Shown: positions 23,654-43,541, counted from the stretch's first letter. The stretch is 64,000 nt of DNA from an uncultured Cellulophaga sp. (GCA_947491225.1 CANLIE010000008.1:1-64000); one strand, 5' to 3'. The notes: a model not told the origin generated them from the letters alone. Made by a program: numbers and translations.

Positions 23654-23866
23654 AGGGTAAAATTAAGCTGTAAAGGTACAAAATTAGATTAATTATGGGT
23701 GCTAAAAAATAAGTCACCATACAATAAAGTCATTTTCACAACATATTTAAATGCTGCTACAACAATAAATTTATGAACAAGTTATAAACAGTCATATTTG
23801 TTTAAGCAAATTTCGCACATGCGTTAAAATGTTTGCAAAAATTTTAAACGTTTAATCTAACTAACT

Positions 23867-26152
23867 ATGTCCCCAGGCAATAAAATAGTTACAAAACTTC
23901 ACCCTATGAGAACTACACCTACATCTCTTTTGGTACTTTTATTGTTTATTCTATTTTCCTTTAAAACTAATTCCCAAATTTTAAATGCCCCAGTGCCAAT
24001 TCCGCTCCCTGGTGGTAGTTCTCCTTGGACATCTATTTGTGCCTCTTCTACCTTTAATGATTATTCGGTAAATTTTACTTGGATTAACGCACCTGCAGTT
24101 AACAATGACAATAAATTTATACTAGAACTATCTGATGCTAATGGAAACTTTGGTAGTCCTGTTGCATTAGCAACTTTTAGCGATAAGAATACTACTTATG
24201 ACTTTGATATTAATTTTTTACTGCCTACAGATATACAGGGAGAGAACTACAAAATAAGGGTGAAAAGCACTAGCCCAGAAAAGTTTAGTCCAACAAGCGG
24301 ACCATATTCAATGTATTATGTAAATTTTAAAAAACAAATACTATTAAGCCAAGATGGCAATGGTACTATTCCTTCTGGTCAGAAGATAGAAATTTGTGAA
24401 GGTACAGCAGTAACTTTGGCTCCACACAATGTTCCAAATGCAGATACTTATAAGTATAATTGGTACAGGAGTGGTACTTTATTATCAGAGAAAGGACCTT
24501 CTTTAACAACCACACAAGCAGGAATGTACTATGTTTTTATTGACTATGGATCTGTATGTAGTAGTGCTTCAGGAACAGAATCTATAATCATAGAAGTTAC
24601 AACAGGAACAAAATTGGGTGTAGCCATTAACGCACCCACAAAGAGAAGCTTATGCTCATCTGAAACAGAAACATTAACTGCAAATATTTCTGGACAAGGC
24701 TTAACATATGTTTGGTATAAAGATAATGTGGCAGTAACCAGCCCCACTGTTGATGACCATACTTATACAGTTAACGGTTCTAGCGCTGGTTTTCAAGGAG
24801 ATTATGCTGTAGAAATTAGTGGTTCAGGCATTTGTTTAGAACGTTCAGCTATTGTACCTATTACAACAGCAGCTAATGTAACAGTAACCAGAGATAATCC
24901 AACAAATATAGTAATTCTACCAAATAAGACTAAAACACTACAAGTTACCAGTAGTGATACTAATGTAAATTTTTCTTGGTATAAAGATGGTAATTTAATT
25001 ACAGGTGAAAATAACAATACATTACAAATAAACAGTGCAGGAGAGTACTTTGCACGTATATCAGATAAAGGTGGTAGCTGTTCTTTTTCAATAGATTCAG
25101 ACAAAACAATGGTTGTTTCCCCAGCCTCATTTGAACTTACTATAGAACATAAAACTAGCTATACTGAATGTGAAAGTACAGCCACAACCATAGAGGTATC
25201 TATAATTGAAGCCATAGCAGCTGATGGAACGAAAACAAATGTTACAGCTGATCTAATCAATGATTTTACATATCAATGGAAAAAAAGTGGAACAAACGTT
25301 TTAGGTGAAACAACTAAATCTATTAACCTTAGTAATGTAACCCAAAACGGAGATTACAGTGTTAATGCTAGTATAAGTGGTTATAGCAATATAGACTCCA
25401 ATACAGTAACAGTTAAATTATTGACTACTGAAACGGTTAGTATTTCAGCAACAAGTACAACCTTCTGTAACCCTAGTAATCCTGTACAAATAAGTACAAC
25501 TACTTCGCTTTCTGGTGAAACTTTTACTTGGTATAAAGATGGTAACGCTTTTAATAGTACAGATGAAACTTTAAGTAGTGCAGAAACTGGAACCTTTGTT
25601 CTTGAGGTTATTAAAGATAGCTGCCCATTACGCTCCAACGAAATTAGTATTGCTTCCTTAAATGAAAACCTAATAACATTTGATAGTGAGAACCCAGTTA
25701 TTTTGGTAGAAGGACAGACAAAAACAATAACTGCTTCTGGAGGAACTTCATATCGATGGTTAAATGCTTCTAATAATGAATTAAGCACAACATCATCTGT
25801 AGATTTAACAGAGGAAGGAACTTATACGCTTATAGCAAAAATTGATAACTGTGATGTAACAAAGCAATTTACAGTTACATATAAAGATACTTTTAATATT
25901 CCTAATGTGGTAACCCCCAATGGCGATGGTAAAAATGATTTATGGGTATTGCCAAACACTTATGCTAACAAAGCAAACGTGAATGTAATCATATACAACA
26001 GTAACGGAGAAGAAATTTTAAACGAAAAAAGTTACAACAATAACTGGCCTAGCTCATCAATGAAGTTCCCAAAACAAAATATGGTTTTTTTCTATAAGAT
26101 AATAGATTCTAAAAACTCTCAAAAACAAGGAACCATAACAATTATAAGATAA
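23867..26152 (+). CDS. T9SS type-B sorted surface protein with Ig-like repeats
   Basis: A 761-residue secreted protein. The signal peptide is clear (LLVLLLFILFSFKTNSQ); translation may instead begin at ATG 23906 (MRTTPTSLL), which gives a more compact signal. Residues about 45-170 look like a fibronectin-type fold. From about 185 to 665 there are five or so Ig/PKD-like units with a WYKDG or WYRSG strand and paired cysteines. The last 85 residues (from about 676, NIPNVVTPNGDGKNDLW) are the CHU_C / gliding-motility-associated C-terminal domain, the type-B signal for type IX secretion. It is first of a five-gene run ending with two PorP/SprF proteins and the giant adhesin, and is probably an accessory component or ligand of that surface structure. 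Confidence 0.85.
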   Translation: MSPGNKIVTKLHPMRTTPTSLLVLLLFILFSFKTNSQILNAPVPIPLPGGSSPWTSICASSTFNDYSVNFTWINAPAVNNDNKFILELSDANGNFGSPVALATFSDKNTTYDFDINFLLPTDIQGENYKIRVKSTSPEKFSPTSGPYSMYYVNFKKQILLSQDGNGTIPSGQKIEICEGTAVTLAPHNVPNADTYKYNWYRSGTLLSEKGPSLTTTQAGMYYVFIDYGSVCSSASGTESIIIEVTTGTKLGVAINAPTKRSLCSSETETLTANISGQGLTYVWYKDNVAVTSPTVDDHTYTVNGSSAGFQGDYAVEISGSGICLERSAIVPITTAANVTVTRDNPTNIVILPNKTKTLQVTSSDTNVNFSWYKDGNLITGENNNTLQINSAGEYFARISDKGGSCSFSIDSDKTMVVSPASFELTIEHKTSYTECESTATTIEVSIIEAIAADGTKTNVTADLINDFTYQWKKSGTNVLGETTKSINLSNVTQNGDYSVNASISGYSNIDSNTVTVKLLTTETVSISATSTTFCNPSNPVQISTTTSLSGETFTWYKDGNAFNSTDETLSSAETGTFVLEVIKDSCPLRSNEISIASLNENLITFDSENPVILVEGQTKTITASGGTSYRWLNASNNELSTTSSVDLTEEGTYTLIAKIDNCDVTKQFTVTYKDTFNIPNVVTPNGDGKNDLWVLPNTYANKANVNVIIYNSNGEEILNEKSYNNNWPSSSMKFPKQNMVFFYKIIDSKNSQKQGTITIIR

Positions 26153-26158
26153 TTAAAC

Positions 26159-28264
26159 ATGTTTAAGTTTAAGTACATATACTTTCTATTATTACTAATG
26201 GCACTAACCAATGTTAGTGCACAAGAGGTTAATCCTTACCTATCCTATGATGTTCCCTCACAAAACCTTTTAAAATACAATAGGTTTTTAATAAATCCTA
26301 CTTTTTCAACAGTAAGAGAAGACAAGTCGTACATAAACTTTTTACATAGAAATCAATCCGTAAATTTTTCAGATAATAATCAAAACTATTTCCTAAGCTA
26401 TAGTGGCCGTGTTAATGACCGTACAGGTTTAGGTCTTAGTCTATATTCTCAAACCGCAGGTACATTAACAAACTATGGTGTCTTGGCCAACTATGCATAT
26501 GGCGTAAAGCTAAATGATAAAAGTAATTTTACTTTTGGAGCCAACCTATCATATTATGCCAGTGGCTTAGACCAAAACAGGATAAATGTCAATGATCCAA
26601 ATGATCCGTTCTTAAATGGTCAAAAAGATAACTTATTACAGTTTCAACCAGGTGTAAACCTATCTTATGGAAAGTTTGATTTTGGCGTGTACGCAGAAAA
26701 CTTATTTGATTATAACCTTAAAACTAGTGAATCCATTACAGAATTTAACGAAAAAACATTTTCTGGTCACTTACAATATACCCATCAGTTTAATAAAACA
26801 ACTGGAGTCTTAGAAGAAGGGCGGCTAATGCCCCTAGCAAGAGTTAGAAAGGTTGCTAGCAATGATATAGTCCTTGGTGGTAGTTTAATTTTAGATTTAC
26901 CAAAATTGGGTTGGATTCAGACTGGTTATGATGATCATTATGGTGCCGCTGCTGGTATAGGGTTTAATCTTAACAAACGTTTGTCTTTAGGATATACAAT
27001 GGAAAAAGGAGTTTCAGGAACCTTTGATAATTTTGGAATTACACATGAAATATCGCTTGCCTACGCATTTACTCCCAATTTAACAGAAGACAGGGTTATG
27101 CTAGAAGATAATAATGATTTGGTAGAACAGGAGCAGGAAGATTTTTTAAATTCTGATGAAGCATTAGCTTCCGAAAAAATAGAAGAATTAAAAAGGAAAC
27201 TTGCAGAAAATGATGAGATACTGGCAGAATTAATATACAGACAAGATTCCTTAGAACAAAATAGACAGGAAGATTTAGAAAAAAGATTTGAAATGGTAAT
27301 GCGTATGGTTCGTAATGAAACCAAAGGTAAACGCCCAGATCTAGAAGAAAAAGCAAAGAAAATGTATTTTATTAATAATGACAATAAAGCATTGGCTAAT
27401 AATTCTAATAAAAAACCAATTGGTATAGAAAAGTCTTTTCGTGATAAAAAAATTCAGGATGAAACAGATGCAACTACTGTAAAACCAATTTCAATAAAAA
27501 ATGCCAACAACAACAATACTATTGCTAAATCAAACAAAACAAAAACAGAGAATAGTGTATCAAAAATAAAAAGTAGAAAATTTAAAAACTTAAGCGGAAT
27601 ATCAGAAGGTTATTATGTAATAGCAAATGTTTATAAAGGTGAGGGCTATCTAAACAAATTCATATCTAATTTAAATAGTCGCGGAATTGATGCTGATTAC
27701 ATAGAAAACCCTAATAACGGATTAAAATACGTTTACCTAAAAAAATATGATACTTGGCAAGAAGCTGTAGATGCTCACAATTCTAAAATGAATGGTAAGT
27801 ATGATGATACAATGTGGATAATGAATGTAGATAATAATACATCTACAGATACCAGATACTCAGACACGGCTTATGCTAGTAATAACCAAACAAAAGATAA
27901 AACAGCTATACAGGCTAAAGAAAAATATACTAGGTCTAAATTCAGAAATCCTGTAAAAAAAGACAACGTTACTAATGGTTTTACACAAACCAAAATTGCA
28001 AAACTCAGTGGTGTAGATTCTGGGTATTATATTATAGTTAATGTTTTTGCTAATCTAAGAAATGCTAACAAATTTGTGACACTACTTAACAAACAAGGAC
28101 TTAATGCCAGCTATTTTATAAACCCAGAGAACAATTATAGATATGTATATCTAAAGAAGCACAGTTCATGGAACAATGCACTATTATCATACTATTCAAA
28201 AATTAACAACTCATATCAAGATAAAATGTGGATAATGAGAGTAACCCCTAATCAACTAGCATAA
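26159..28264 (+). CDS. PorP/SprF family outer-membrane protein fused to two SPOR-like repeats
   Basis: A 701-residue protein starting 6 bp after the previous stop. After a signal peptide (ALTNVSAQ), residues about 25-310 form the PorP/SprF beta-barrel (NRFLINPTFSTV, many alternating Tyr/Gly strands). PorP/SprF proteins attach type-B T9SS cargo to the cell surface. A charged coiled coil follows (about 325-410), then a linker. Two homologous units of about 80 residues come last (about 478-560 and 615-698), with GYYVIANVYK or GYYIIVNVFA starts, a KYVYLKKY or RYVYLKKH centre and KMWIM-type ends. These resemble SPOR domains, which bind denuded peptidoglycan. The fusion would tie the barrel to the cell wall. 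Ordinary PorP/SprF proteins stop near 310 residues. The SPOR call is by pattern only. Confidence 0.82.
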   Translation: MFKFKYIYFLLLLMALTNVSAQEVNPYLSYDVPSQNLLKYNRFLINPTFSTVREDKSYINFLHRNQSVNFSDNNQNYFLSYSGRVNDRTGLGLSLYSQTAGTLTNYGVLANYAYGVKLNDKSNFTFGANLSYYASGLDQNRINVNDPNDPFLNGQKDNLLQFQPGVNLSYGKFDFGVYAENLFDYNLKTSESITEFNEKTFSGHLQYTHQFNKTTGVLEEGRLMPLARVRKVASNDIVLGGSLILDLPKLGWIQTGYDDHYGAAAGIGFNLNKRLSLGYTMEKGVSGTFDNFGITHEISLAYAFTPNLTEDRVMLEDNNDLVEQEQEDFLNSDEALASEKIEELKRKLAENDEILAELIYRQDSLEQNRQEDLEKRFEMVMRMVRNETKGKRPDLEEKAKKMYFINNDNKALANNSNKKPIGIEKSFRDKKIQDETDATTVKPISIKNANNNNTIAKSNKTKTENSVSKIKSRKFKNLSGISEGYYVIANVYKGEGYLNKFISNLNSRGIDADYIENPNNGLKYVYLKKYDTWQEAVDAHNSKMNGKYDDTMWIMNVDNNTSTDTRYSDTAYASNNQTKDKTAIQAKEKYTRSKFRNPVKKDNVTNGFTQTKIAKLSGVDSGYYIIVNVFANLRNANKFVTLLNKQGLNASYFINPENNYRYVYLKKHSSWNNALLSYYSKINNSYQDKMWIMRVTPNQLA

Positions 28265-28431
28265 TGGATAAGATTTTTTCAAAAATAATTCTTTTGTGTG
28301 CACTCTTACTAACGTGTATTGCCCTAGCAAATAATAAAAACCATATATCAAAAGAAAATATCATAATTAAAAAAAATATAGAAAATAACTTTTCTACAAC
28401 TCATAATTACCCAACCAAACAATACTCATAA
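28264..28431 (+). CDS. Small exported protein (55 aa) within the adhesin operon
   Basis: The ATG overlaps the stop of the PorP-SPOR gene (TAATG at 28262-28266), and the giant adhesin starts 15 bp after its end. The product begins MDKIFSKIILLCALLLTCIALA, a good signal peptide. The mature part is about 33 residues, rich in Lys, Asn and Ile. A Cys at residue 18 lies inside the hydrophobic core, so a lipoprotein is unlikely. Position and coupling argue that it is a real gene. It is too short to assign to a family. It could be a small cofactor or chaperone for the secretion pair, but that is conjecture. Confidence 0.6.
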   Translation: MDKIFSKIILLCALLLTCIALANNKNHISKENIIIKKNIENNFSTTHNYPTKQYS

Positions 28432-28446
28432 AAACATTCTAACCAA

Positions 28447-31400
28447 ATGAATAAGTTATTAAAATTACTCTTAATCATAATTACTATTGCTATAACCTAT
28501 ACAGGTTATGGTCAAGTAAAGAATAGTTTTAAACCACGTTATGACAATAGTCTAAAAGGTGATTTAACTATAATAGCCAATAATATAGTAAACCGGGAAG
28601 GAGATGAAGGCTATTGGACTGGCCCATCGTGGAATAGAACATGGGTTTCTGTACCTAGAAACGCCAACGACCCATATAACCAAACAGGAAGTAGCTCTAC
28701 CTATAACGATAGCTGGAATATGCAGTATATTGATATTGATGGTGATAGTGATACATCTACCTTTAGTTCTAGTAGTTCTACATTAACAGTACCAGATGCT
28801 AGCTGTTCTCTTGTTAGGTATGCTGGCTTATACTGGTCTGCCGTTTATAGAAATACTGACAGAAGTAATATAGATAACATTAAGTTTAAAGTTCCTGGTG
28901 GATCATATATGGATATTTCTGCAGATGAGATATTATTTGATGGAAACGGCGATACAGATTTTGGGTTTTACAGCCCGTATGCATGTTATAAAGATATCAC
29001 TTCAATAATTACTGGTTTAGCAGATCCAAACGGAGATTATACAGTAGCTAACGTAAGAGCCAGTTCTGGAAACTCTATTCCAGGGGGTGTTTCTGGTGGT
29101 TGGACTATGGTTGTAGTGTATGAAAACCCTAACTATCCAGGAAAATACATTACTACTTTTGATGGTTATGCGGGTATAAAATCTGGTGAAACAGTTGATA
29201 TTCCTATTTCAGGATTTACTACTTTACCAAACCCTTTCCCAGTTAATGCAAGACTGGGTGTTAGCACATTAGAAGGTGATAATCGTATTTCAGGAGATGG
29301 TTTATCAATTAAAGCAAATAGCAAACCCCTTACTGATCCCTTTATCCCACTAGGAAACACGGTAAACCCCACTAATAATTTTTTTAATAGTAATATAACC
29401 ATTGAAAATACTATAGTAAATACACGTAGTCCCAATAGTATAAATACTTTAGGGTGGGATGCTGACCTTTTTACAATTCCCAACCCAGCTAGATCTGTTA
29501 TTCCAAATAATGAAACAGGAGCCGTATTAAGAGCTAGTTCTTCTCGAGATAAATATGATATTTTCTTTACTTCTTTTGATGTAGAAATCATAGAACCCAA
29601 AATAAACCTAGCTAAACGGGTAGAAGATATAGGTGGTACTGATATTACTGGACAAGGTGTAAATTTAGGACAAATATTAGATTACGTACTAACATTTCAA
29701 AACGTTGGTAATGATGATGCAGACGAATACACTATAAGAGATGTTTTGCCACAAAATGTAACCTTAGATGAAAACAACTTTACACTTCCCGCAGGAGTAA
29801 CCTATACCTATAATGCTGGTACAAGAACAGTTTTGTTTACAATACCAAATAATTTAGTGCCAGAAGGCGGTTCTTCTTATAGCATACGTATGCGGGTTAA
29901 GGTTGCAGAAAATTGTTTCGATTTTGTAGATGCATGCTCAGATTTAATTCAAAACTTAGCATATTCTACATATAAAGGTGTCCTAAATAGCAACCAAATA
30001 ACTGATGATCCAAGTGTTACAGATTTTGACAGTTGTGGCTTTACTACTCCTGGTGCCACCAATTTTTTATTAGATGACCTAGAAAGTTGTGATTATAGTA
30101 GAACTGTTCAGCTTTGTGGTGCCAATATACTATTAGATGCTGGTGATAATTTTGATGATTATATATGGTATAAGGATGAAAACAACAACAGAATTATAGA
30201 TGCTGGTGACACTGTTCTAAATGATGGTAATCCAGACAATGATTTAAGCACATTAATAGTAGATGATATAGGTATATATATTGTTGACAAAATAGTTGCT
30301 GATCCGTGTAAGGGGTTTCAAGAAATCATAACCGTTGAGCGTTTTGGAATAACACAAACAAACCCAATTTCAGCCTTAATAAATGACACTTCTAATACTG
30401 TTGAAGGAGAAGTTACTATTTGTCCAATAGACGGAGACCCATTACCAAAAGTATTTTTATGTGGGTTAAATGATGTTGAGCCAATTACCATTAACATTCC
30501 TGATGCATCTAGCATACAATGGCAAAAACTAGATGAAAATAGCTGTACCGCTTCTATAGATGATTGTGCTAATAAAAATGGTACATGTACTTGGAACAAT
30601 GTAGAATCTGGAAGTACTTTTTTAGCTTCAGATGCTGGCCAATATAGACTTATAATCAACTATCAAAATGGTTGTTTTAGTAGATTCTATTTCAATGTTT
30701 TTAAAAACCTATTAGATCCTCAATATACTAGTAATGACATAATTTGTACAACACCTGGTAATATTACTGTAACTAATATTCCTGCAGATTATGAATTTCA
30801 ATTACTAAATGCTGCAACAAATGCTGTTTTGGTTCCTTTTAGTGCTAATAATGGTCCTAGTTTCACAATTGCAAACAATGGGGCATATACAATTGAAATT
30901 CGTCAGCAAGGGGTTGTAGATGGTTGCCTTTTTATGCTAGAAAATATTGGTATAAGAACACGTAATTATGAGGTAAACATTACTACAAAAGATACAGATT
31001 GTAATGGTCTAGGAGAAATACGAATCTCTGCTGAAGACGTAGAACCACAATACTATTTTGAAGTCTCTCAAGGAGGAACAACAATAGATACTTATGGACC
31101 TACCGATGACAATGATTATACTTTTGAAAAATTAAGTGATGGTGTTTATGATGTTACTGTGTCCACAGATGACGGATGTACACATACAGAACAAATAACC
31201 ATAAATGATGTATCTGATTTAGCAGGTTCTGCATTAACAACAAAATCTATAGATTGTACTGATGGTATAATAACTGTTACTGGTACAGGAGGTTTTGCAA
31301 ACCCTGCATATTCTTATGCTATTTGGAGTAAAGACGGAGTTAATTTATATACTGACTTATCTGATATACCTGCTAGCGAGTTCCAAGCTAACAGTGATTT

Positions 31401-34400
31401 TACATTTGACGCAACTGAAGCTGGTACTTATGAATTTATAGTGGTTGATAGCAATAATTGCTATGCAATAACTAATGAAGAAATAATTACTATTGCACCC
31501 GCAATAACATATACTACATCTGTAACAAATGAATCTTGTTTTGAGGCTGAAGATGGTAGTTATGTGGTGACTGTTACAGCTAGTAATGGTTATACAATGT
31601 CTTACAGTTTATTAAACCCAGATGGGTCTACTACAGTTAATGGCTCTGGTAATTTTACAAATTTAGCTCAAGGAAATTATACTTTAACAATTACACAAAC
31701 AAATGGAAGTGACGTTTGTGATTTTACAGAAACTTTTACAATTGGTGGGCCAACAAGTAGAGTAGCTGGTACTGCTTTTTTAATACAAGATTATACCTGT
31801 TTACAAGAAGCGATAATAGAAGCTCAAAATGTAACAGGTGGTGAGGCTCCATATCAATATAGTATTGACGGAATAAACTTTGTTGGACCAAGTGCTAGTG
31901 CAGAAAGATTTACCAACTTAACAAACGGTACTTATAAGATTACCATTAGAGATGCTAAAGGGTGTACTTTTGTCACTAATAGCATAAGCATAGATCCTTT
32001 AAACGGACCTACTGATTTAGATTTTACAGCAACAACTCCTAATTGTCCTACTCAAACATCAGATGTTACTGTTACAGTTACTAATGGGAACACTCCTTTT
32101 ACTTTTGAAATAATTGCACCTTCAGCAATTGCAGCAACAAATGTTACTGGTAATACAGCAATTTTTAATGGCTTGGCTCCTAATACATATACGTATAAAG
32201 TTACAGATGCAAAAGGTTGTTCTTATGAGGAAAGTCATACAATTAGACCAGTTAACCTAATAAACGTTGTTGGTAATCTTAATAGCAATATTACTTGTTT
32301 TAATGATACTGATGGTGAAGCTACTTTTACGGTTTCAGGCTTTAATACAACATATAATTATTCCATTACAGGACCTACAGCAATCCCAAATGGAACAGCA
32401 GTAAACAATTTAACCATTCCATTGACCAATTTAGATGATGGAATATATACTATAACTGTTACCGATACAGAAACAAATTGTACAGATACAGCAAGTGTAA
32501 CTATTAATGCACCTGTTAGTGCTTTATCATTAACTGCTAATGAAACACAACCAACCTGTACAACAGATGGTAGCGTTGTTTTAACAGCTACTGGTGGCTG
32601 GGGAGGTAATACCTTTACCATTACACATCAAAATAGTGGAACAACATTTACAAATAGTACTGGCAGGTTTAATAACTTAAACCAAACAGGAACTTTTAAT
32701 ATTAGTGTAGAAGATGCTAATGGTTGTATTGTTACTTCAAGCTTTGATTTATATCCTTCTATAGCTCCAACTTTAGAAATTGTTCCAAATAACAATTGCT
32801 TTATAGCAGCCGTAGGACTAGAACTTACAGCAAATGTGATTGCAGGCGGAGACGGTGCTTATAAATACAGAATAAATGGAGGTGCTTACGCTGCAAATAA
32901 CACATTCTCTAACTTAAACCCAGGCACATATACTATAGACGTTATAGATGGTAACAACTGTACAGGAACGGCTTCTATTACAGTTAATCCTGAACTAACA
33001 ATTACTGCGACTGCAGATACTATTACTGCTTGTGGTACAGATACTAATGTAACCATTACTGCCGCTGGTGGTGACGGTATAAATTATGTTTATGCAATTG
33101 TTGATAATGGGGTAACTCCTAATACAGGTGATTTTTCTACAACAAACCCAAGAACAATTACAACAGGCCCAGGTGATTATGATGTTTACGTACGTGATAA
33201 CAATGGAACAGGGAATTTCTGTGAGGCTAAGTTTGACTTAACAATAAATAAAAGAACACCAATAGTAATTACAGAAACAGTTACAAATGTTTCGTGTTTT
33301 GGTGGTAATAATGGTACTATTTCTTTGGCTATTACTGGCGGAAAAGCACCATATCGCTATAGTATTAATAATGGCGCTGATTATAAAACAACAAACAGCT
33401 TTTCAAATTTAACTGCAGGTACATACCCAGTACTTATACAAGATTCAGATTTATGTACACAGTCTTTAAATGTAACCGTTAATGAGCCTGCAGAAATTGA
33501 AGCAGAAGCATTACAAACAAAAGATTATACTTGCCTGCCTTCTCCTAACAATTTTGCTGAAATTACAGTAGGAAGCATAAACCCTACCATTGGTGGTTCT
33601 GGAAACTATCAATATAGTATTAATGGTGGTGCATGGACAGCTTCTACTACAGGAGGTATTGTATTTGATAATTTAATTGATGGTACATATTCAATTCGTG
33701 TAAGAGATGCTAACGCAACAGATTGTTTCATTACTTTACCAAATGTAATTATACCTGCTTTACCTACAATGCCAACTTTAAGCAGTTCAATTACGTATAA
33801 TTGTGATGGTAGTGGAAATATAAGCATCTCTCCCTTTAATGCTTCTTATACATACACCTTAGGGGCATTAGTACAGACAGGGGCTTCTGCTAATGTATTT
33901 AACAATATAGCTCCTGGTAATTATACAATTACTGTTGATTATGGTAGCAGTTGTACTACAGACATTGTAGTTAATGTTGAAACAGGTAAAGCTTTTGGAG
34001 CAACAATTACAAATCCAAAAAATATTTCTTGTTTTGGTGGTAATGACGGTGAATTTGTTATTAATGCTTCAAACTTTGGTGCGGGTGGATTCCAATATTC
34101 TATAAATGGAGCTCCTTTTTCAGCTGCTTTTACAACTCCGCAAACAATAACTGGCTTAACTGCACAAAACTTTACTATTGAGGTTAGAGATGTTGATGAT
34201 AATACGTGTACTATACCTTTAACTCAAGAATTAACTCAGCCTACTGAGGTAACAGCAACTGCATCTATAACAGAAGAATTTACGTGTAATAACACTGGTG
34301 CTACAATTACAGCAGTAGCTAATGGTGGTACACCAACTTATACTTATCAATTAGAAACAAATACTGGTACTGTTGTAAGAGCATATCAATCTTCAGCAAT

Positions 34401-37400
34401 ATTTAACAATGTACCTGCTAATAATCCAACAGAAAATTATATTGTAAGAGTACTAGACAGAAATTTATGTACAAATGTTGTTACTCCTGCAATAACTGTT
34501 ACTGCCCCAGAAGTGCCAACTTTTACTGTAACGCCAACAGCGTGTTACTCTGGTGCAAATGATGGAGAAATACGTGTAGATATAACATCTATTCCAGGAA
34601 ATGGTAATTTCCAATTTAGAATTGATGGTGGGGCTTGGGTTACACCAACTCCTGTTACAGCAACAACTTATACTTTTACGGGCCTAGCTAACGGATCTTA
34701 TAATATAGACGTTAAAGATGGTTATGGTTGCGTTGGCGTACAAGAAACGGTTGTATTAAATCCAGTTATTAATGCTACAATAGATGTTGTACATATTAGC
34801 TCTTGTGCAGATGGTAGTATTACTGTTAATGCAAATGGTGGTGATGGTAATTTAGCTTATGCTTTTGTCACAACAGGAACTCCTGTAACAGCAGTAGATT
34901 TTAACCCATCTAATACTTTTACAGTAATACCTGCAAATGCAGGTACATATGATGTTTATGTATGGGATAATAACGCAGCAGATCCACATTGTGAATATAT
35001 GGAAACTGTTACAGTTAACCCAGCAACTCCATTAACTTATAATGCGGCACCTACAGATCCTACTTGCCATGATGGTACAGGAACTATAGAAATTACAGTT
35101 ACATCTGGAATAGCACCATATACATATCAAATTATTGATTTAGATAACGGTGGTGCATCTAATGAAACTACAACTAATGTAATAAACAATACTAAAACAT
35201 TTTTTAATTTAGCACCTGGTAACTATACAATTAACGTTACAGATGCAAGCGGATGTACAATAGAAACAACACCTGTATTAATTAATAATCCTGATGAATT
35301 AGTAACAGATATAGAATCTATTTTATCTGGTAATTGTGACCCTGCAACAGGGTTTAGATTTATTAACTATACAACAACTTTAAGTGGAACATTAGAATTT
35401 AGTCATGATGGTGGTACTACTTGGCAAACATCTGATGAGTTTAATGCTCCTACATACACATTAACATCTGGTGATGCTGTAGACCCTTCAATTAGAACAG
35501 TAGATGCATCTGGTAATACATTATGTAGATTAGATTTACCTAGATATATTATAGCTTATCCATTAGATAATTTAGATATAACAATTGGTGCTGTAATTGT
35601 TGATTGTAATGATTTACAAGTTACTGTTCAAGGTAACGAGGGTACAGCACCTTATCAATATACGTATACAGACGATCCTGTTAATTTTGATGCAACTACA
35701 CCAAGTAATCCTTGGACAACACCTGCTAAAGGACTAGCAGACCCACACGTATTCACTGGTTTAGTACCAGGTAGAACGTATGTGTTTTATGTAAGAGATG
35801 CTAATGGTTGTGTTAGACAAAGTGATATTAATGTAAACGATTTAATTACGTTACCATTAGAAATTACATCTACTTCTGTACCAGCTTGTTTTGGTATGAC
35901 AAATGGTAGTATTACATATACAATAACTGATAATCAAGCTCCATTTGGTAATGAATATAGATGGGAAGTTTTTAATATGATTACAGGTACTCCAGTATCT
36001 GTAGCAAATAGTGGAGGTAATATTCCTTTTTCTTCTCCACAATCAGTTACAGTATCTGGTTTAGGAGCTGGAGAATACTTTATACAAGTAACAGAGAGAG
36101 ATAGTGGAGTAGATAGTTGTATATCTGCATCAGAAAATTTATTATTAGAAGAGTTAGATGATATTACAGCAACATTAAATAAGATTCAAGATATTTCTTG
36201 TGCTACACCTGGTCTTATTCAAATAGAAAACATCAATGGTGGTGGCGGTATTTATACTTTTACTGTAACTGGTCCGGCACCTTTTACAACTATTACAGGT
36301 ACTACAGATAATCCAATAGAAATTCCTGCTAATTCACCTGCTGGTACTTATAACGTAACTATTCAAGATCAATATAGTTGTGATAAAGATTTAGGAGATG
36401 TTATAATGACATTAACTCCTAACCCAACAATAGATAGTATAGATGTAAATAATTGTGCAATACCAAATACTTTGCAAATTAATGCAACTAGTACAGCTGC
36501 TCAAATACTATATTCTATAGATGGTGGTGTAACATATGTAGATAATGGAGGTTTATTTACTAACCTTTCCGTTGGTACATATAACATTTCTATAAAAGAT
36601 AGTAACGGCTGTATAGCTACAGATAGTGCTACTATTTATCCAATATTAGAGGCTAATGTTGAGCTTACTAAACTAATGGATTGTACTCCTGGTACTGCAG
36701 AAATTACAATTGAAGCTATAAATGGTTCTGGAGATTATGATTATGAAATTACAAACGGTTTAGGAACTGTTGTTGCTAGAACATCATTAGCAACAAATCC
36801 TCTTGTAGCAACTGTAACAGTTGTAGAAAATTATACTGTTACTGTTTATGATAATAACACAAGTGGTCCAGAATGTTCTAGAGTATTTACTATAGAAGTT
36901 CTTGCTGCCGTAACCCCAATATTTACAGAAACACATACAAATCTTACTTGTAATGCTTCAAATGATGGAACAATAACTTTATACCAAACAGATAATGGTA
37001 TAAACCCATTAACATATACAATTTCTCCAGTTGCTGGTACTTTTGATGCTGCTACAAGCACATTCTCAGATTTACCACCTAATACATATACTGTAACTGC
37101 TACAGGTACAAACGGATGTACAGAAAACATAGTAGGAATAGTAATAGATAACCCTGCTGTTATAGCAGATATAAATACCACAATAGTAGAATTTGGTTGT
37201 ACTATAGGTAATACTTCTAACAATGCTTCTATATCAATTAACAATGGCATAACTGGTGGTAGTGGAACATATGTTATTTATGAATTTATAAATAATAATG
37301 GCACACCTGCAACTGGTGATGATGTTACTGTACAATCTAGTTCTAATACTGTTTATATAGAAACGAATACTAGTGGTGGTTCTTACACCATTAATGTATA

Positions 37401-40400
37401 TGATGATAAAGGATGTGTTGGTAGTACAACAGCAACCATTCTTCCATATGATGAATTGTTAACACCTACAATTACCGTTGATGATAACATTACATGTAGT
37501 AATGCTGGTGAAGATATTACAATAAATGCCTTTGGATCTCTAACAGACTCTAGTACACCTGCTGGTTTAGCAAACTATGAATTTAGAGAATTACCTAGTG
37601 GTATTTTTCAAGCTTCAAACCAATTTACAAATTTAGCCATAGGTGATCATACTTTTGAAGTACGTAATGTAAATACTAATTGTGTTGCTACTATTTCTCA
37701 TAAAGTAATAGATCCTAATACTTTTGATATAACTGTTACCAAGCTAAATGATGTCATTTGTTATGGTACTGAAACAGGTCAGGTTACTTTTGAGTTGACA
37801 GATGCTACGTATTCTGGTCCAATCAATTGGGTAATTTATGATACTAATGGAACAGTAGATAGGTTAGATGATACACCTGTTAAAAACAATACTTTTGCCA
37901 CTAATGGTCCAACAGCTCCAATAACGTTGGAAGCTGGTAGCTATTTGGTTGAAATTTTTCAAGTTAATAATCCACAATGTAGTAATGTTGAAGCATTTAC
38001 TATTGCTGGCCCTAGTGCTGCAATAACTGCTGCTACAGATATTACTCCTGTAACTTGTGCTGGTAATGATGGAGTTATTGAAATAATTAATGCTGCTGGT
38101 GGTTGGGGTAATTATACTTACTTTGTAGATATCGCTACAAACCCTGCACCAACTTTTCCTGGAAGTTACCAAACATCTCCTAGATTTACAGGTTTATCGG
38201 GTGCTGTAGGGCCAGCAGGAACAGATTACCAAGTTTGGATTGCTGATAAAGACGGCTGTGTTCTTCAACTAGCTAATGTAAACTTAGTAGAGCCTACTCC
38301 AATTAGTGCTACCTTACAAGTAAACCAAGAAAACTGTACAAACTTAGAAGGTGAAATTCAAGTTATTGGAACTGTAGGTGGACAAGGAAGCAACTACACA
38401 TACCAATTAATTAAAAACGGTACAGCTGTTGGTTCTCCACAAACAACAACAATATTTAGTGGATTAGGAGAAGGTTCATATACAGTATTAATAAATGACC
38501 AATGGAGTTGTTCTTTTACAACATTGGCAACAGTATTATATGAAGAAATGAATGTAACAACAACAGTTGTTAAACCAATAGATTGTAGTACAACGGATCC
38601 TGGTGGACAAATAACTGTAAATGTAAATGGTGGTTCTTCAAACTTAGAGTTTATAGCTACTTTACCAGTAAGTGGTACAACTATTACTAATAATACAGGG
38701 GTATTTACAGGTTTAATGGAAGTTGGTATATATAGCTTTACGGTACGTGATTTAGATACTAATACGCCAGTATGTGAAAAACCAGTTACACAAGAATTAA
38801 CAGATAAGGTAGATCCTATTTTATTGGCTTCTACTATAAAAAATGTTAGCTGCTTTGGTTTGTCTGATGGTAGTATTACTGCTAACTTAGACCCAACAAC
38901 CAACGTAGATCCTATCTATACTTATAATTTATATGATGCTACTGGGACAACTCAAATAGGAGGAAATCAAACCAGTCCAACTAGTCCAACATTTACAGGA
39001 TTACCTGCAGCATTTTATCAAATAGAAGTAATTTCTGCTAAAGGATGTTCTGTAAGACAAACTGTTGAGGTTACACAGCCAACAGAATTATTAATTAGTG
39101 CCGTTGCAACAGAATTTGTATGTGCCACTAATAATACTGTAAATATGGCAACCATTACTGTTACTATAGAAGATGGAGCTACAACTCCAGGAACGCCTTC
39201 TGGTACTAGCCCATATTTATACAGTATAGACAATGTTAACTTCCAAACAGCTAATACATTTAGTGTAGTAGATACAGGAATTGCACAAACCATAACTATA
39301 TATGTAACAGATGGTAATAGTTGCCCGCAAACAACAACGGTAACTATAGAACCTATTAATACATTTACTGCTGTAGTTACTAAAGATGCAGATATATCAT
39401 GTGTTGGTCCAGAAGAAATTACTATTACAGTAACAGATAACGGTGATGCTATTAATGTATATACGTATGAGTTATTGCCAATAGGTAATACTAATGCTAC
39501 ACAAACAGGGACACCTACATATAATACAGCAACCTTTAATTTAACAGCAGTTGGTGGGTATGTATTTAGAGTTACAGATACAACTACGGGTTGTTATGTA
39601 GATACAATACCTTATGATATTTCACCTTATAATTTAATTAAGGTTGAAGCTACAGCAACTAGTTCTGTAACTTGTTTTGGAGACACAAATGGTACAATAG
39701 ATGTTACAGTAACAGATGCTACAGGACCGTTTACATATACCGTTTTAAATGCAGATGGTACCTTATTAACTCCAAGTATAACAAATACAGTTAATACAAA
39801 TACGTTTACCATTTCTGGACTATCTGGAGGTAATTATTATGTTGCTGTAAAAGAAGATAATGCCCCAGAGTGTACAGCAGATTCTAACATAATTACTATT
39901 GCTTCTCCTGATATGCCTTTAACAGCAATTGTTAACCCTACAGCAGATGTTACTTGTGATAATGATAGAGGAGAGATATTGGTTGACCCTAGCGGAGGTT
40001 ATGCTCCTTATGATATTGTATTGACAAATACCACTACATCAGATGTATATTCGGTTACAGATGTATTAACCCATACTTTTCAAACTCTAGGATCAGGAAA
40101 CTACACAGTATCCATTACAGATGCAAATGGTTGTGTCTATAACGATACTGAAGTATTGGTTGCTGCTACACGAATTGTAGCTGATATAACACCGCTTACA
40201 ACTGTTTTAACTTGTTTTGGCGATACTACAGGTAGCGTTTCTGCAAATGTTAGTGGAGGGCAAGGAGTATATCAATATCAACTTAATGTTTATGATGCTA
40301 CTGGCACAGTAATTATCTCAACCAGTGGAAAACAAGCAAGCAATACTTTTAACAATTTAGGTGCTGGTAGATATTCCATTACAGTATCTGATGGTTGGAA

Positions 40401-42159
40401 CTGTATGGAAGATACTATACAAGCCGTTATATCTGAACCTTCAGATGTTTCTGGATCATTGGTTCAATTATCGCCTTTAACTTGTGTAGACCCAGCTAGA
40501 ATACAATTAACAGCAACAGGTGGTACTGCTCCTTATCAATTTAGTACAGATGGTATTAATTTTACTTCAATGTCTAGTGGAGATACCCATATATTTACAA
40601 TTACAGATGACGACGTATATCAATATTATGTAAGAGATAATTTTAACTGTGGTAATACTATAAGTAACCAAGTTTCTATAGATGCTGTTCCTGATTTGGA
40701 AATTATATTAGATGAAAGTGCAGCAATAATTAACTGTAGTGGAGAATCAACAGCAAGTATTAATGCAACAGCCATAGGTGGTATGGGTAATTATTCTTAT
40801 GAATTATTAGACTCTCCAACCAGTACCACTCCATTAGATGGTCCAAAAAATACTGGTGATTTTAGAAATATATCTTCTGGTACTTACTATATAAAAGTAA
40901 CATCTGATGGTGGTTGTGAAGAGATTTCTAGAGCTATAAACATAACAGAACCAAATCCATTACAAATAGATACAGAAGAATATACAGATGTAGCTTGTGC
41001 AAATGAAGATAATGGTACTATAACTGTTGAGGTTTCTGGAGGAACTGGAATAATATTATATGCTATATCTCCTAATCTAAATCAATTTGATACCAAAAAT
41101 GTATTTACAGATTTAGCACCAGGTGTTTATGATGTAATTGCACAAGATGAAAACGGCTGTTTTATTCCTTTCAACTTTACTATTACAGAACCTCAACCAA
41201 TACAATTAAGTGCCACAACTGTAGGAGAAACTTGTACTGGCAATGAAGATGGTATGGCAACAGTTACCATAGTTGGTGGTATAGCTCCTTACAGCACAAG
41301 CATTGATTCTAATGACCCAGCAGATTATGTACTAGACAGAGTAGATTTTACTGGACTGTCTTCTGGAGCACATGTTATATTTATTAAAGATGCTAATGGA
41401 TGTGATGCTAATATCGTTATAGATATAGCACCAGGAGTTAACCTAAAGGCTACTGCAACCCCAATTTACGAGTGTAGCACAGATACTCCTACAAACTATT
41501 TAGAAGTAGTTTTAGAAGACAATACAATAACAGATGTTCTATATGGTGTAGACACAACAGACCCTACTGTAATGCAATTAACACCAGATTTTGCAAATAT
41601 TCCTGCTGGTGATCATTATTTATACATAATGCATGAAAATGGTTGTACAGAAACAATAGACTTTACAGTTGAAGCTTTTGACCCATTAACTTTAGTTTTA
41701 GAAAATACTAATATAAATGAAATCACAGCCATAACAACTGGTGGTAAACCTAAGTATACTTTCTATATAGAAGGAAACAATAATGGAGAAGACAATACGT
41801 TCAGAATACATAAGACAGATACTTATACCGTTGTTGTTGTAGATGAAAATGGTTGTGAAGCTACTCAAGATATATTTATTGAGTTTATTGATATAGAAAT
41901 TCCTAATTTCTTTACACCAAACGGTGATGAAACTAACAACACGTGGAAGCCTAAAAACACTGAGGGATTCCCTAATATTTTAACTATTATATATGATAGA
42001 TATGGTAGAGAACTATACAGAATGGGATCTAATGATAAAGGTTGGGATGGAACTTACAATAATAAAGAACTACCCTCTGGAGATTATTGGTACACAATTA
42101 AATTAAAAGAAGAGGAAGATGATAGAGAATTTGTTGGACATTTCACTTTATATAGATAA
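28447..42159 (+). CDS. Giant SprB-like T9SS type-B adhesin with about 40 SprB repeats
   Basis: A 4570-residue cell-surface protein. The signal peptide is residues 1-23 (ending TGYGQ). Residues about 25-380 form a unique N-terminal module with GLYWSAVYRN, WTMVVVYENP and LGVSTLEGDNR blocks. A DUF11-like domain lies at about 385-500 (QILDYVLTFQNVGNDDADEY), and Ig-like segments run to about 830. From there to about 4470 about 40 SprB-type units of 80-100 residues follow. Each starts with a TC or SC strand, has YSI-D-G or F-NL--GTY strands, and ends in a D-x-x-G-C motif. The last 85 residues (from about 4485, IPNFFTPNGDETNNTW) are the CHU_C type-B sorting domain. SprB of Flavobacterium johnsoniae is the mobile gliding adhesin with the same plan. 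A PorP/SprF gene follows after 25 bp, as sprF follows sprB. Confidence 0.9.
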   Translation: MNKLLKLLLIIITIAITYTGYGQVKNSFKPRYDNSLKGDLTIIANNIVNREGDEGYWTGPSWNRTWVSVPRNANDPYNQTGSSSTYNDSWNMQYIDIDGDSDTSTFSSSSSTLTVPDASCSLVRYAGLYWSAVYRNTDRSNIDNIKFKVPGGSYMDISADEILFDGNGDTDFGFYSPYACYKDITSIITGLADPNGDYTVANVRASSGNSIPGGVSGGWTMVVVYENPNYPGKYITTFDGYAGIKSGETVDIPISGFTTLPNPFPVNARLGVSTLEGDNRISGDGLSIKANSKPLTDPFIPLGNTVNPTNNFFNSNITIENTIVNTRSPNSINTLGWDADLFTIPNPARSVIPNNETGAVLRASSSRDKYDIFFTSFDVEIIEPKINLAKRVEDIGGTDITGQGVNLGQILDYVLTFQNVGNDDADEYTIRDVLPQNVTLDENNFTLPAGVTYTYNAGTRTVLFTIPNNLVPEGGSSYSIRMRVKVAENCFDFVDACSDLIQNLAYSTYKGVLNSNQITDDPSVTDFDSCGFTTPGATNFLLDDLESCDYSRTVQLCGANILLDAGDNFDDYIWYKDENNNRIIDAGDTVLNDGNPDNDLSTLIVDDIGIYIVDKIVADPCKGFQEIITVERFGITQTNPISALINDTSNTVEGEVTICPIDGDPLPKVFLCGLNDVEPITINIPDASSIQWQKLDENSCTASIDDCANKNGTCTWNNVESGSTFLASDAGQYRLIINYQNGCFSRFYFNVFKNLLDPQYTSNDIICTTPGNITVTNIPADYEFQLLNAATNAVLVPFSANNGPSFTIANNGAYTIEIRQQGVVDGCLFMLENIGIRTRNYEVNITTKDTDCNGLGEIRISAEDVEPQYYFEVSQGGTTIDTYGPTDDNDYTFEKLSDGVYDVTVSTDDGCTHTEQITINDVSDLAGSALTTKSIDCTDGIITVTGTGGFANPAYSYAIWSKDGVNLYTDLSDIPASEFQANSDFTFDATEAGTYEFIVVDSNNCYAITNEEIITIAPAITYTTSVTNESCFEAEDGSYVVTVTASNGYTMSYSLLNPDGSTTVNGSGNFTNLAQGNYTLTITQTNGSDVCDFTETFTIGGPTSRVAGTAFLIQDYTCLQEAIIEAQNVTGGEAPYQYSIDGINFVGPSASAERFTNLTNGTYKITIRDAKGCTFVTNSISIDPLNGPTDLDFTATTPNCPTQTSDVTVTVTNGNTPFTFEIIAPSAIAATNVTGNTAIFNGLAPNTYTYKVTDAKGCSYEESHTIRPVNLINVVGNLNSNITCFNDTDGEATFTVSGFNTTYNYSITGPTAIPNGTAVNNLTIPLTNLDDGIYTITVTDTETNCTDTASVTINAPVSALSLTANETQPTCTTDGSVVLTATGGWGGNTFTITHQNSGTTFTNSTGRFNNLNQTGTFNISVEDANGCIVTSSFDLYPSIAPTLEIVPNNNCFIAAVGLELTANVIAGGDGAYKYRINGGAYAANNTFSNLNPGTYTIDVIDGNNCTGTASITVNPELTITATADTITACGTDTNVTITAAGGDGINYVYAIVDNGVTPNTGDFSTTNPRTITTGPGDYDVYVRDNNGTGNFCEAKFDLTINKRTPIVITETVTNVSCFGGNNGTISLAITGGKAPYRYSINNGADYKTTNSFSNLTAGTYPVLIQDSDLCTQSLNVTVNEPAEIEAEALQTKDYTCLPSPNNFAEITVGSINPTIGGSGNYQYSINGGAWTASTTGGIVFDNLIDGTYSIRVRDANATDCFITLPNVIIPALPTMPTLSSSITYNCDGSGNISISPFNASYTYTLGALVQTGASANVFNNIAPGNYTITVDYGSSCTTDIVVNVETGKAFGATITNPKNISCFGGNDGEFVINASNFGAGGFQYSINGAPFSAAFTTPQTITGLTAQNFTIEVRDVDDNTCTIPLTQELTQPTEVTATASITEEFTCNNTGATITAVANGGTPTYTYQLETNTGTVVRAYQSSAIFNNVPANNPTENYIVRVLDRNLCTNVVTPAITVTAPEVPTFTVTPTACYSGANDGEIRVDITSIPGNGNFQFRIDGGAWVTPTPVTATTYTFTGLANGSYNIDVKDGYGCVGVQETVVLNPVINATIDVVHISSCADGSITVNANGGDGNLAYAFVTTGTPVTAVDFNPSNTFTVIPANAGTYDVYVWDNNAADPHCEYMETVTVNPATPLTYNAAPTDPTCHDGTGTIEITVTSGIAPYTYQIIDLDNGGASNETTTNVINNTKTFFNLAPGNYTINVTDASGCTIETTPVLINNPDELVTDIESILSGNCDPATGFRFINYTTTLSGTLEFSHDGGTTWQTSDEFNAPTYTLTSGDAVDPSIRTVDASGNTLCRLDLPRYIIAYPLDNLDITIGAVIVDCNDLQVTVQGNEGTAPYQYTYTDDPVNFDATTPSNPWTTPAKGLADPHVFTGLVPGRTYVFYVRDANGCVRQSDINVNDLITLPLEITSTSVPACFGMTNGSITYTITDNQAPFGNEYRWEVFNMITGTPVSVANSGGNIPFSSPQSVTVSGLGAGEYFIQVTERDSGVDSCISASENLLLEELDDITATLNKIQDISCATPGLIQIENINGGGGIYTFTVTGPAPFTTITGTTDNPIEIPANSPAGTYNVTIQDQYSCDKDLGDVIMTLTPNPTIDSIDVNNCAIPNTLQINATSTAAQILYSIDGGVTYVDNGGLFTNLSVGTYNISIKDSNGCIATDSATIYPILEANVELTKLMDCTPGTAEITIEAINGSGDYDYEITNGLGTVVARTSLATNPLVATVTVVENYTVTVYDNNTSGPECSRVFTIEVLAAVTPIFTETHTNLTCNASNDGTITLYQTDNGINPLTYTISPVAGTFDAATSTFSDLPPNTYTVTATGTNGCTENIVGIVIDNPAVIADINTTIVEFGCTIGNTSNNASISINNGITGGSGTYVIYEFINNNGTPATGDDVTVQSSSNTVYIETNTSGGSYTINVYDDKGCVGSTTATILPYDELLTPTITVDDNITCSNAGEDITINAFGSLTDSSTPAGLANYEFRELPSGIFQASNQFTNLAIGDHTFEVRNVNTNCVATISHKVIDPNTFDITVTKLNDVICYGTETGQVTFELTDATYSGPINWVIYDTNGTVDRLDDTPVKNNTFATNGPTAPITLEAGSYLVEIFQVNNPQCSNVEAFTIAGPSAAITAATDITPVTCAGNDGVIEIINAAGGWGNYTYFVDIATNPAPTFPGSYQTSPRFTGLSGAVGPAGTDYQVWIADKDGCVLQLANVNLVEPTPISATLQVNQENCTNLEGEIQVIGTVGGQGSNYTYQLIKNGTAVGSPQTTTIFSGLGEGSYTVLINDQWSCSFTTLATVLYEEMNVTTTVVKPIDCSTTDPGGQITVNVNGGSSNLEFIATLPVSGTTITNNTGVFTGLMEVGIYSFTVRDLDTNTPVCEKPVTQELTDKVDPILLASTIKNVSCFGLSDGSITANLDPTTNVDPIYTYNLYDATGTTQIGGNQTSPTSPTFTGLPAAFYQIEVISAKGCSVRQTVEVTQPTELLISAVATEFVCATNNTVNMATITVTIEDGATTPGTPSGTSPYLYSIDNVNFQTANTFSVVDTGIAQTITIYVTDGNSCPQTTTVTIEPINTFTAVVTKDADISCVGPEEITITVTDNGDAINVYTYELLPIGNTNATQTGTPTYNTATFNLTAVGGYVFRVTDTTTGCYVDTIPYDISPYNLIKVEATATSSVTCFGDTNGTIDVTVTDATGPFTYTVLNADGTLLTPSITNTVNTNTFTISGLSGGNYYVAVKEDNAPECTADSNIITIASPDMPLTAIVNPTADVTCDNDRGEILVDPSGGYAPYDIVLTNTTTSDVYSVTDVLTHTFQTLGSGNYTVSITDANGCVYNDTEVLVAATRIVADITPLTTVLTCFGDTTGSVSANVSGGQGVYQYQLNVYDATGTVIISTSGKQASNTFNNLGAGRYSITVSDGWNCMEDTIQAVISEPSDVSGSLVQLSPLTCVDPARIQLTATGGTAPYQFSTDGINFTSMSSGDTHIFTITDDDVYQYYVRDNFNCGNTISNQVSIDAVPDLEIILDESAAIINCSGESTASINATAIGGMGNYSYELLDSPTSTTPLDGPKNTGDFRNISSGTYYIKVTSDGGCEEISRAINITEPNPLQIDTEEYTDVACANEDNGTITVEVSGGTGIILYAISPNLNQFDTKNVFTDLAPGVYDVIAQDENGCFIPFNFTITEPQPIQLSATTVGETCTGNEDGMATVTIVGGIAPYSTSIDSNDPADYVLDRVDFTGLSSGAHVIFIKDANGCDANIVIDIAPGVNLKATATPIYECSTDTPTNYLEVVLEDNTITDVLYGVDTTDPTVMQLTPDFANIPAGDHYLYIMHENGCTETIDFTVEAFDPLTLVLENTNINEITAITTGGKPKYTFYIEGNNNGEDNTFRIHKTDTYTVVVVDENGCEATQDIFIEFIDIEIPNFFTPNGDETNNTWKPKNTEGFPNILTIIYDRYGRELYRMGSNDKGWDGTYNNKELPSGDYWYTIKLKEEEDDREFVGHFTLYR

Positions 42160-42184
42160 TACAAAAAGAACTTAATCTAAAATT

Positions 42185-43138
42185 ATGCGATATAAATTAT
42201 TAACTTTACTATTATTTATGAGTACTTTGCTCATAAAAGCACAGGAATTAAATTCTCCTCAATTGTCGCAATATCTGGCAGATAACCCTTTTGTGCTTTC
42301 TCCTACCTATGCTGGTATAGGAGATCATGTAAAAATTAGGATGAATGGCCTAGCCCAATGGGTAGGTATAAAAGATGCTCCTCAAACACAATCTCTTGCT
42401 GCTGATGCAAGAATAGGAAACAAATCAGGATTAGGAATTTTTCTTTATAATGATAAAAATGGATATACAAAACAGCAAGGGGCAAGACTCTCTTTTGCTC
42501 ACCATTTAACATTAGACAAATACGAAGATGAGTTCTTATCCTTTGGTATCTCTTATAACTTTAATCAATTTAGAATAGATATAGAAAAATTTAATCTAAT
42601 TGCCGACCCTGACGATTATGTAACAGATGATAGGTCTACTACAAATCATAACTTTGATGTTGGTTTAATGTATAGAATAAATAAATTTTATGCTAGTTTA
42701 AATGTATCAAATCTAATCAATAAAGACATTACTAATTTTAATCCAACTTTTGAGCCAAACAGATTAAGAAATTATTACTTATATACTGGTTATAGATATA
42801 AGAAAAGTAAAAATAGTGATTGGGAAATTGAACCTTCTGCACTTTATAAAATGTTTGAAAGTGATGGAAGATCTGAAACAGATCTTAATTTAAAATTTAG
42901 AAAGTATAATTTTGAAGATTATTATTATGCTGGAGTAAATTACAGGTTCTTAAATGATCAAATTGGTAAACCCTTATATATTGCACCATTTGCAGGCTTA
43001 AAAAAGAACAACTTTTATTTTGGGTATTCTTACCAAATAATATTAAACGATATTTTAAATTATAGTACCGGAACTCATGTGGTTACAATTGGAATGGATT
43101 TATTCCAAGGTTTAAGTAATTGTAGATGTACCTACTAA
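42185..43138 (+). CDS. PorP/SprF family type IX secretion membrane protein
   Basis: A 317-residue outer-membrane beta-barrel of the PorP/SprF family with a signal peptide (LLFMSTLLIKAQ). Family traits are the N-terminal SPQLSQYLADNPFVLSPTYAGIG block, WVGIKDAPQTQSL, then alternating aromatic strands (FSFGISYNFNQF, DVGLMYRINKFYASLNVSNL), and a short Cys-containing end. In F. johnsoniae SprF is needed to deliver SprB to the surface. The gene is 25 bp downstream of the giant adhesin, so it is very likely its dedicated SprF-type partner. It is a normal-length version, in contrast to the SPOR-fused paralogue at 26159. Confidence 0.88.
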   Translation: MRYKLLTLLLFMSTLLIKAQELNSPQLSQYLADNPFVLSPTYAGIGDHVKIRMNGLAQWVGIKDAPQTQSLAADARIGNKSGLGIFLYNDKNGYTKQQGARLSFAHHLTLDKYEDEFLSFGISYNFNQFRIDIEKFNLIADPDDYVTDDRSTTNHNFDVGLMYRINKFYASLNVSNLINKDITNFNPTFEPNRLRNYYLYTGYRYKKSKNSDWEIEPSALYKMFESDGRSETDLNLKFRKYNFEDYYYAGVNYRFLNDQIGKPLYIAPFAGLKKNNFYFGYSYQIILNDILNYSTGTHVVTIGMDLFQGLSNCRCTY

Positions 43139-43184: not shown

Positions 43185-43541
43185 ATGGGAATAATAAAAG
43201 TTAGCAACATTAAGGTATATGCCTATCATGGTTGTTTGAATGAAGAAACTATAATTGGTAGTGATTACTTGGTCAATGTTTTGGTTAAAGCTAATTTATC
43301 TAAAGCTTCTTTATCTGATGATTTACAAGACACAGTAGATTATGTTCATATTAATCATATTGTAAAACAAGAGATGGCTATTAAATCTAAATTGTTAGAG
43401 CACGTTGCAAAACGTATTATGGACAGGATTTTCTTAGAAATTAGTATTGTAAATACTGCTGAAGTGACTGTTTCTAAAGTAAACCCTCCAATAGGAGGAG
43501 ATGTAGAAAATGTTTCGATAACATTACAATTATCTCGTTAA
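43185..43541 (+). CDS. folB: Dihydroneopterin aldolase
   Basis: Converts 7,8-dihydroneopterin to 6-hydroxymethyl-7,8-dihydropterin and glycolaldehyde in folate synthesis. The 118-residue protein matches FolB in length and motifs: VSNIKVYAYHGCLNEE with the substrate-contacting YHG, IGSDYLVNV, the central DTVDYVHINHIVKQE, and the final AEVTVSKVNPPIGGDVENVSI block. The conserved Lys near residue 97 (VSKVNPP) is in place. It follows the PorP/SprF gene by 46 bp with an inverted repeat in the gap, so it is probably a separate housekeeping gene. Two tRNA-Cys genes follow. Confidence 0.92.
   Translation: MGIIKVSNIKVYAYHGCLNEETIIGSDYLVNVLVKANLSKASLSDDLQDTVDYVHINHIVKQEMAIKSKLLEHVAKRIMDRIFLEISIVNTAEVTVSKVNPPIGGDVENVSITLQLSR

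Follow-up and report, generated by a model that had tools for sequence, protein, structure and literature searches.

Genes at the locus

The genes described here lie on contig 8 of a 3.59-Mb Cellulophaga genome, within a window of 64,000 nucleotides (the whole stretch of DNA that was analysed). An earlier note on this DNA had described five plus-strand ORFs, coding for an Ig-like CHU_C protein, a PorP/SprF-SPOR fusion, a short exported peptide, a protein with SprB repeats and CHU_C, and a PorP/SprF protein. ORF and Pfam/NCBIfam checks recovered all five in the places described there, separated by 6 bp, a one-base overlap (TAATG), 15 bp and 25 bp, and the same family searches confirmed the domain calls. 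The first gene of the operon, sprC, sits beside a divergent glnS. The features are as follows.

Promoter-like element, 23738..23800, plus strand: ACAACA..ACAACA(W)nAAATT..CATATTTG upstream of sprC, found by a regular-expression scan
sprC, 23867..26152, plus strand: exported Ig-like protein with a Type B T9SS signal; Ig_7 and CHU_C by Pfam/NCBIfam, CHU_C at 25895-26149
sprD, 26159..28264, plus strand: PorP/SprF-type barrel at approximately 26327-27070, helix at 27158-27322, SPOR 1 at 27572-27832, SPOR 2 at 28022-28246; no Cys
p55, 28264..28431, plus strand: 55-aa ORF with a signal peptide and a short tail; confined to a clade of the genus
sprB, 28447..42159, plus strand: giant repeat adhesin with 14 SprB-repeat stretches; Type B T9SS signal (CHU_C) at 41893-42156
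sprF, 42185..43138, plus strand: PorP/SprF carrier; Cys-Arg-Cys in the C-terminal tail at 43121-43129
folB-like gene, 43185-43541: directly 3' of sprF, and kept there in nearly every relative read

The fusion of PorP and SPOR in SprD is real, with two SPOR domains (residues 472-558 and 622-696) instead of the one first reported. The second CHU_C cargo also stands, the operon holding two pairs of Type B cargo and carrier genes, with one of the carriers SPOR-tailed. As judged from order and homology, the locus is the orthologue of the sprCDBF gliding-motility operon plus one small extra ORF. The gene set itself is already known, and is found here in another species, a Cellulophaga.

Conservation of the arrangement

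A divergent glnS followed by sprC and sprD was kept in all of the 25 other genera read and in all 17 congeners. The neighbourhood of PorP-SPOR and SprB, for which a synteny search had been proposed, recurs in 24 of these genera and 15 of these congeners, where sprB comes next, and the arrangement is therefore not due to chance. In the 25th genus (L044) the N-terminus of sprB was not recognised, and the SprB C-terminus and folB do come after. Downstream, sprF-folB was found in 16 of the 17 cases read that far (8/8 other genera and 8/9 congeners). The upstream genes, whose separate conservation the earlier note had envisaged, are co-conserved with sprB-sprF almost everywhere. Such a separation was seen in the single-contig congener G155 (L116 / L138), where sprC-sprD lies beside glnS and is followed by unrelated genes, no sprB-sprF-folB being found within about 30 kb downstream; the two pairs are thus separable. 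In another congener, G162, sprD is followed by an ORF that reads from its sequence as site-specific-recombinase-like, close to where the stretch ends. One genome, G003 (L063, L064; G003:C75), has sprC-sprD-sprB-sprF and then a second sprC-sprD-sprB.

In the same regular-expression scan, 7 congeners and 10 genera besides this one had the promoter-like element ahead of sprC, at a distance of 110-172 bp. In 5 congeners it precedes sprB instead, which seems to be a transcription unit of its own there. In other clades sprB overlaps sprD directly or has, by eye, an apparent terminator and promoter of its own. The SM5 promoter of Flavobacterium psychrophilum was considered as an identity for the element and rejected, as its TAnnTTGY box gave no fit by eye.

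How the locus compares with F. johnsoniae

In order to compare the locus with that of F. johnsoniae, the genus Flavobacterium was located by GldM identity, with the GldM chain of PDB 6ys8, which we take to be the F. johnsoniae protein, as the query (89% in the best genome). The operon was then located with the sprD primer of PMC9870892, which hit just 1 of the 399 genomes of this genus (G545, a single contig). A search with the same primer in 397 family genomes gave no match, and a profile scan of genome contigs with an SprD alignment had no Flavobacterium among the matches listed (80 close relatives). The F. johnsoniae stretch contains sprC (483 aa), sprD (1588 aa), sprB (6497 aa) and sprF (356 aa, from the first ATG) in that order, in agreement with the published sprCDBF operon (PMC5879114).

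By blastp, SprF is 59% identical to its F. johnsoniae counterpart (E 8e-131), the C-terminal 420 aa of SprB 42% (E 3e-98), the SprD barrel 34% (E 9e-48), SprC 29% (E 6e-29), and the SprD SPOR part 28% to the single C-terminal SPOR of F. johnsoniae SprD. By order and homology the four genes are thus the same, sprC-sprD-sprB-sprF, closely spaced and all on one strand. Both loci also share the CxC tail of SprF, a SprD composed of a PorP barrel and SPOR, and an SprB with repeats and a Type B signal. They differ in protein size, SprB having 4570 aa here versus 6497, SprD 701 aa versus 1588, and SprC 761 aa, in this case longer than the 483 aa of F. johnsoniae. Moreover, SprD here has two SPOR domains instead of one and lacks an Ala/Lys coil, and a 55-aa ORF is added between sprD and sprB. 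The F. psychrophilum arrangement is remFG-sprCDBF (PMC9723704), whereas no remFG lies ahead of sprC here. The suggestion that this might not be the canonical gliding adhesin does not survive the comparison, since the F. johnsoniae locus has the same four genes and its SprD is also a PorP-SPOR protein. For the same reason, the idea of parts added to a simpler pair has to be abandoned, as nothing extra was added.

In F. johnsoniae SprD the linker from barrel to SPOR is much longer than in Cellulophaga and has ~1200 residues, including roughly 1000 residues of Ala/Lys-rich coil, a region that, if helical, would be longer than the depth of the periplasm. The possibility that this coil forms the periplasmic rails was rejected, since every spr mutant that was examined still had visible rails (PMC9870892). 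F. johnsoniae SprD has no Cys outside the signal peptide, as is the case for SprD here.

SprB, SprF and the gliding track

SprB scores 305 bits with PF13573 and 63 bits with CHU_C in Pfam, and 95.7 bits with TIGR04131 in NCBIfam. The SprF tail (..NCRCTY) carries Cys313 and Cys315, the only cysteines of the protein, and F. johnsoniae SprF ends in ..NCPC... Among the sprF orthologues read, only one G003 copy lacks the CxC tail (..GRKCTY, a single tail Cys). The gld genes, for which a genome check had been proposed, are there as well: contig 34 has gldK, gldL, gldM and gldN, contig 40 has gldJ, and each of the five scores over its NCBIfam cut-off. GldK has Cys278 and Cys335 besides its lipid Cys. 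In F. johnsoniae, gliding depends on both C-tail Cys of SprF, which form bonds with Cys343 of GldK, part of the moving GldJ/GldK/GldN track (PMC12635249). Since the CxC tail, gldKLMN and gldJ, and the Cys pair of GldK are all present, the SprB-SprF half appears to have what it needs to work in the F. johnsoniae manner.

Taken from the F. johnsoniae work, the mechanism would be as follows. The 4570-aa SprB would cross the outer membrane through the T9SS and be taken over through its CHU_C domain by SprF, to which it would stay bound. The tail Cys of SprF would bond the GldK Cys of the GldJ/GldK/GldN track, which would drag SprB round the cell, and the cell would move once SprB grips a surface. 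Along these lines, the best explanation is very probably that this is the sprCDBF gliding operon, with SprB-SprF bound to the track and SprC-SprD as an accessory pair. For the latter pair the steps are weaker: SprC may be the cargo of SprD, given the adjoining genes and their cargo-then-carrier order, and SprD may be an accessory carrier whose helix and SPOR domains could reach the peptidoglycan or the track with no covalent bond.

Another SprB-repeat protein of ~2800 aa with CHU_C is found elsewhere in this genome (G000:C3:110135-118000, L125). No PorP carrier was found on the same contig, which makes this Type B cargo an orphan; the lone Cys-tailed carrier on contig 19 might serve it.

SprC and SprD

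The Type B signal of SprC scores 35.5, narrowly above the NCBIfam cut-off of 35, and the start of the protein may be the internal Met14 (23906), as five close congeners begin at MRTTPT. In the AlphaFold2 model of SprD, which has no cysteine, residues 57-304 form a barrel and 334-388 a helix, and two SPOR-type folds (472-558 and 622-696) come after, with disordered linkers in between. The C-terminal part folded alone gave pLDDT >90 over most of both SPOR folds. In Foldseek searches the barrel matched OmpG, FadL and the T9SS carrier in 8gl6. CwlC, DedD, FtsN and RlpA (6i09, with glycan) were among the best PDB matches of the SPOR part, with weak E-values (0.008 at best). SPOR domains, which have a beta-alpha-beta-beta-alpha-beta fold, usually bind the denuded glycan of peptidoglycan. 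The SPOR Pfam score of SprD is 23.0 against a cut-off of 21, and SprD is a putative glycan binder. A sequence search of PDB with SprC, SprD and SprF gave no relevant relative.

Genome-wide there are 11 PorP matches (one a fragment at a contig end), of which 8 come directly after a CHU_C gene; besides SprB-SprF and SprC-SprD, six more pairs have the cargo-then-carrier order. SprC-SprD therefore fits a general layout, and it is from adjacency that we infer, less firmly, a cargo-carrier pair. Type B cargos need PorP-like shuttles in F. johnsoniae (PMC12618676, PMC9143113). A second PorP-SPOR paralogue of 665 aa with no Cys is found at G000:C46:19586-21600 (L060). Pfam found its barrel only, and its SPOR was recognised by similarity to SprD. 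It comes directly after an exported PD40 protein, with no CHU_C gene on the stretch. PorP-SPOR paralogues of ~590-720 aa are present in 17 of 17 congeners.

The SPOR tail of SprD points to a possible wall anchor, which is hard to square with the reported movement of SprC on the F. johnsoniae gliding track (PMC12635249, citing an unpublished thesis). If SprD carries a moving SprC, its own movement has to do without a disulfide, or else the SPOR contact is a loose one; if SprD is fixed to the wall, SprC has another carrier or the movement report concerns something else.

Carrier tails and the possible fate of the adhesin

The tails of the carriers were compared with the genes that follow them. 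In this genome six carriers are barrel-ended (..RFF/RFY), and four of these are followed by a PD40+OmpA (PorE-like) gene. Cys-pair tails are found in two others (SprF and the lone carrier, ..DCKCPAVNY), and the tails of SprD and the contig-46 paralogue are of SPOR type; a PorE-like gene comes after none of these four. In the operon, sprD is followed by p55 and sprB, and sprF by folB. In F. johnsoniae six carriers end in RFF, and the gene after each of the six is PorE-like by its position and C-terminal sequence; the same number of carrier/PorE-like pairs is given in the literature (PMC9143113). Three others have Cys-pair tails (SprF and the carriers at 1,946 kb and 5,741 kb, the last as CxxC), none with a PorE-like gene after it. 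One carrier with neither tail type and SprD complete the set.

By gene order and strand, the 1,946 and 5,741 kb carriers are most likely Fjoh_1677 and the shuttle beside Fjoh_4750. The cargos assigned to these two shuttles formed foci on helical paths (only a small share of the foci for Fjoh_1677), and Fjoh_3952 was static (PMC12618676). The carrier of Fjoh_3952 is most likely one of those ending in RFF.

Among 40 further congener carriers, which are those found in a SprD search, a PorE-like gene follows 0 of 5 with a Cys pair and 32 of 35 with a barrel end (Fisher p 8.5e-5, a value that does not refer to independent events, many of these carriers being mutually orthologous). Added to this genome and F. 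johnsoniae, the totals are 0 of 10 for Cys-pair tails and 42 of 48 for barrel-ended tails, a contrast in gene neighbourhood, not in movement. That moving cargos lack a PorE gene was already noted in PMC12618676. The link between the Cys tail and the absence of PorE is an addition of this analysis, and keyword searches in PMC12618676 and PMC12635249 did not find it. The passages retrieved from these two papers do not join the disulfide to mobile and static shuttles, nor do they explain how a Cys-less SprD fits with a moving SprC. Pairs of the Fjoh_3952-3951-3950 / PG1035-PorP-PorE type are like those here in that a CHU_C cargo gene precedes a PorP-like carrier gene. Their carriers end in ..PRFF with, mostly, a PorE-like (PD40+OmpA) gene next, unlike SprF with its Cys-pair tail and SprD with its SPOR tail, neither of them beside such a gene.

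By its sequence SprD belongs to a third tail class, with neither Cys pair nor barrel end. We propose, tentatively, that the periplasmic tail of the carrier sets the fate of the adhesin: a Cys pair would mean a covalent ride on the GldK track, a barrel end with a separate PorE-like partner fixation to the wall, and SPOR (in SprD and its paralogue) a non-covalent moving mode that touches the peptidoglycan. If true, the gliding machine would have in SprC-SprD a second moving part, one that works with no disulfide. The pieces come from 2025 work on the SprF-GldK disulfide and on mobile and static Type B shuttles, and the locus makes it testable how cells with about ten similar carriers route some adhesins to the moving track and fix others.

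A possible alternative, although we would not bet on it, is that SprC-SprD is a static, wall-anchored pair merely co-transcribed with a moving SprB-SprF, the SPOR tail replacing the PorE-like OmpA partner. Carriers with no Cys pair are mostly followed by PorE-like genes (the 42 of 48 above) and SprD, lacking both Cys and PorE, carries a SPOR tail, of a kind that binds denuded glycan (as in RlpA 6i09, among the fold matches); the persistence of sprC-sprD in G155 would also agree with it. The reported movement of SprC in F. johnsoniae (PMC12635249) goes against a static pair, as does the listing of sprD as required for gliding motility (PMC11885536). Rather improbable is that the two are not cargo and carrier at all, SprC being carried by another shuttle (for example SprF or the lone Cys-tailed one) and SprD having only a structural role. 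This would reconcile a moving SprC with a Cys-less SprD, and PMC12618676 documents crosstalk of Type B signals with shuttles; on the other hand, 8 of the 11 PorP genes directly follow their CHU_C gene, sprD after sprC included, and the two genes remain together where sprB-sprF is absent. Finally, a composite surface machine apart from the gliding adhesin, with the wall-tethered second PorP as a stator, would have in its favour the SPOR domains of SprD, the second CHU_C cargo and the lone sprC-sprD of G155, but is very hard to believe given the same composition (PorP-SPOR SprD included) of the F. johnsoniae gliding operon, the family-wide synteny and the track-binding CxC of the SprF tail.

The small ORF between sprD and sprB

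The extra ORF in this sprCDBF operon, p55, matches no Pfam or NCBIfam family. A 60-aa version is found in 5 congeners and its first 22 aa only in a sixth (G160), with no clear match elsewhere in the genus; p55 is real but genus-restricted. Over codons 1-23 there are 0-2 amino-acid-changing versus 3-13 synonymous differences per pair, and dN (~0.02) is far below dS (~0.2 to saturated) in the signal-peptide codons; in the pairs that include the p55 of the window, dN is 0.02-0.04 and dS ~1.1 or saturated. This part is therefore under strong selection as a protein in six genomes, this one and the five congeners. In the 3' part dN about equals dS and the DNA is 91-95% identical among five close congeners (flanking coding DNA mostly 80-93%), a modest hint of a role at the nucleotide level beside the sprB start. 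Possible roles for p55 would be those of a micropeptide or of a translation-coupling leader. At L050 (G050:C6) the gap from sprD to sprB holds a separate 167-aa ORF with a signal peptide and a single SPOR, which shares 65% identity with the second of the SprD SPOR domains.
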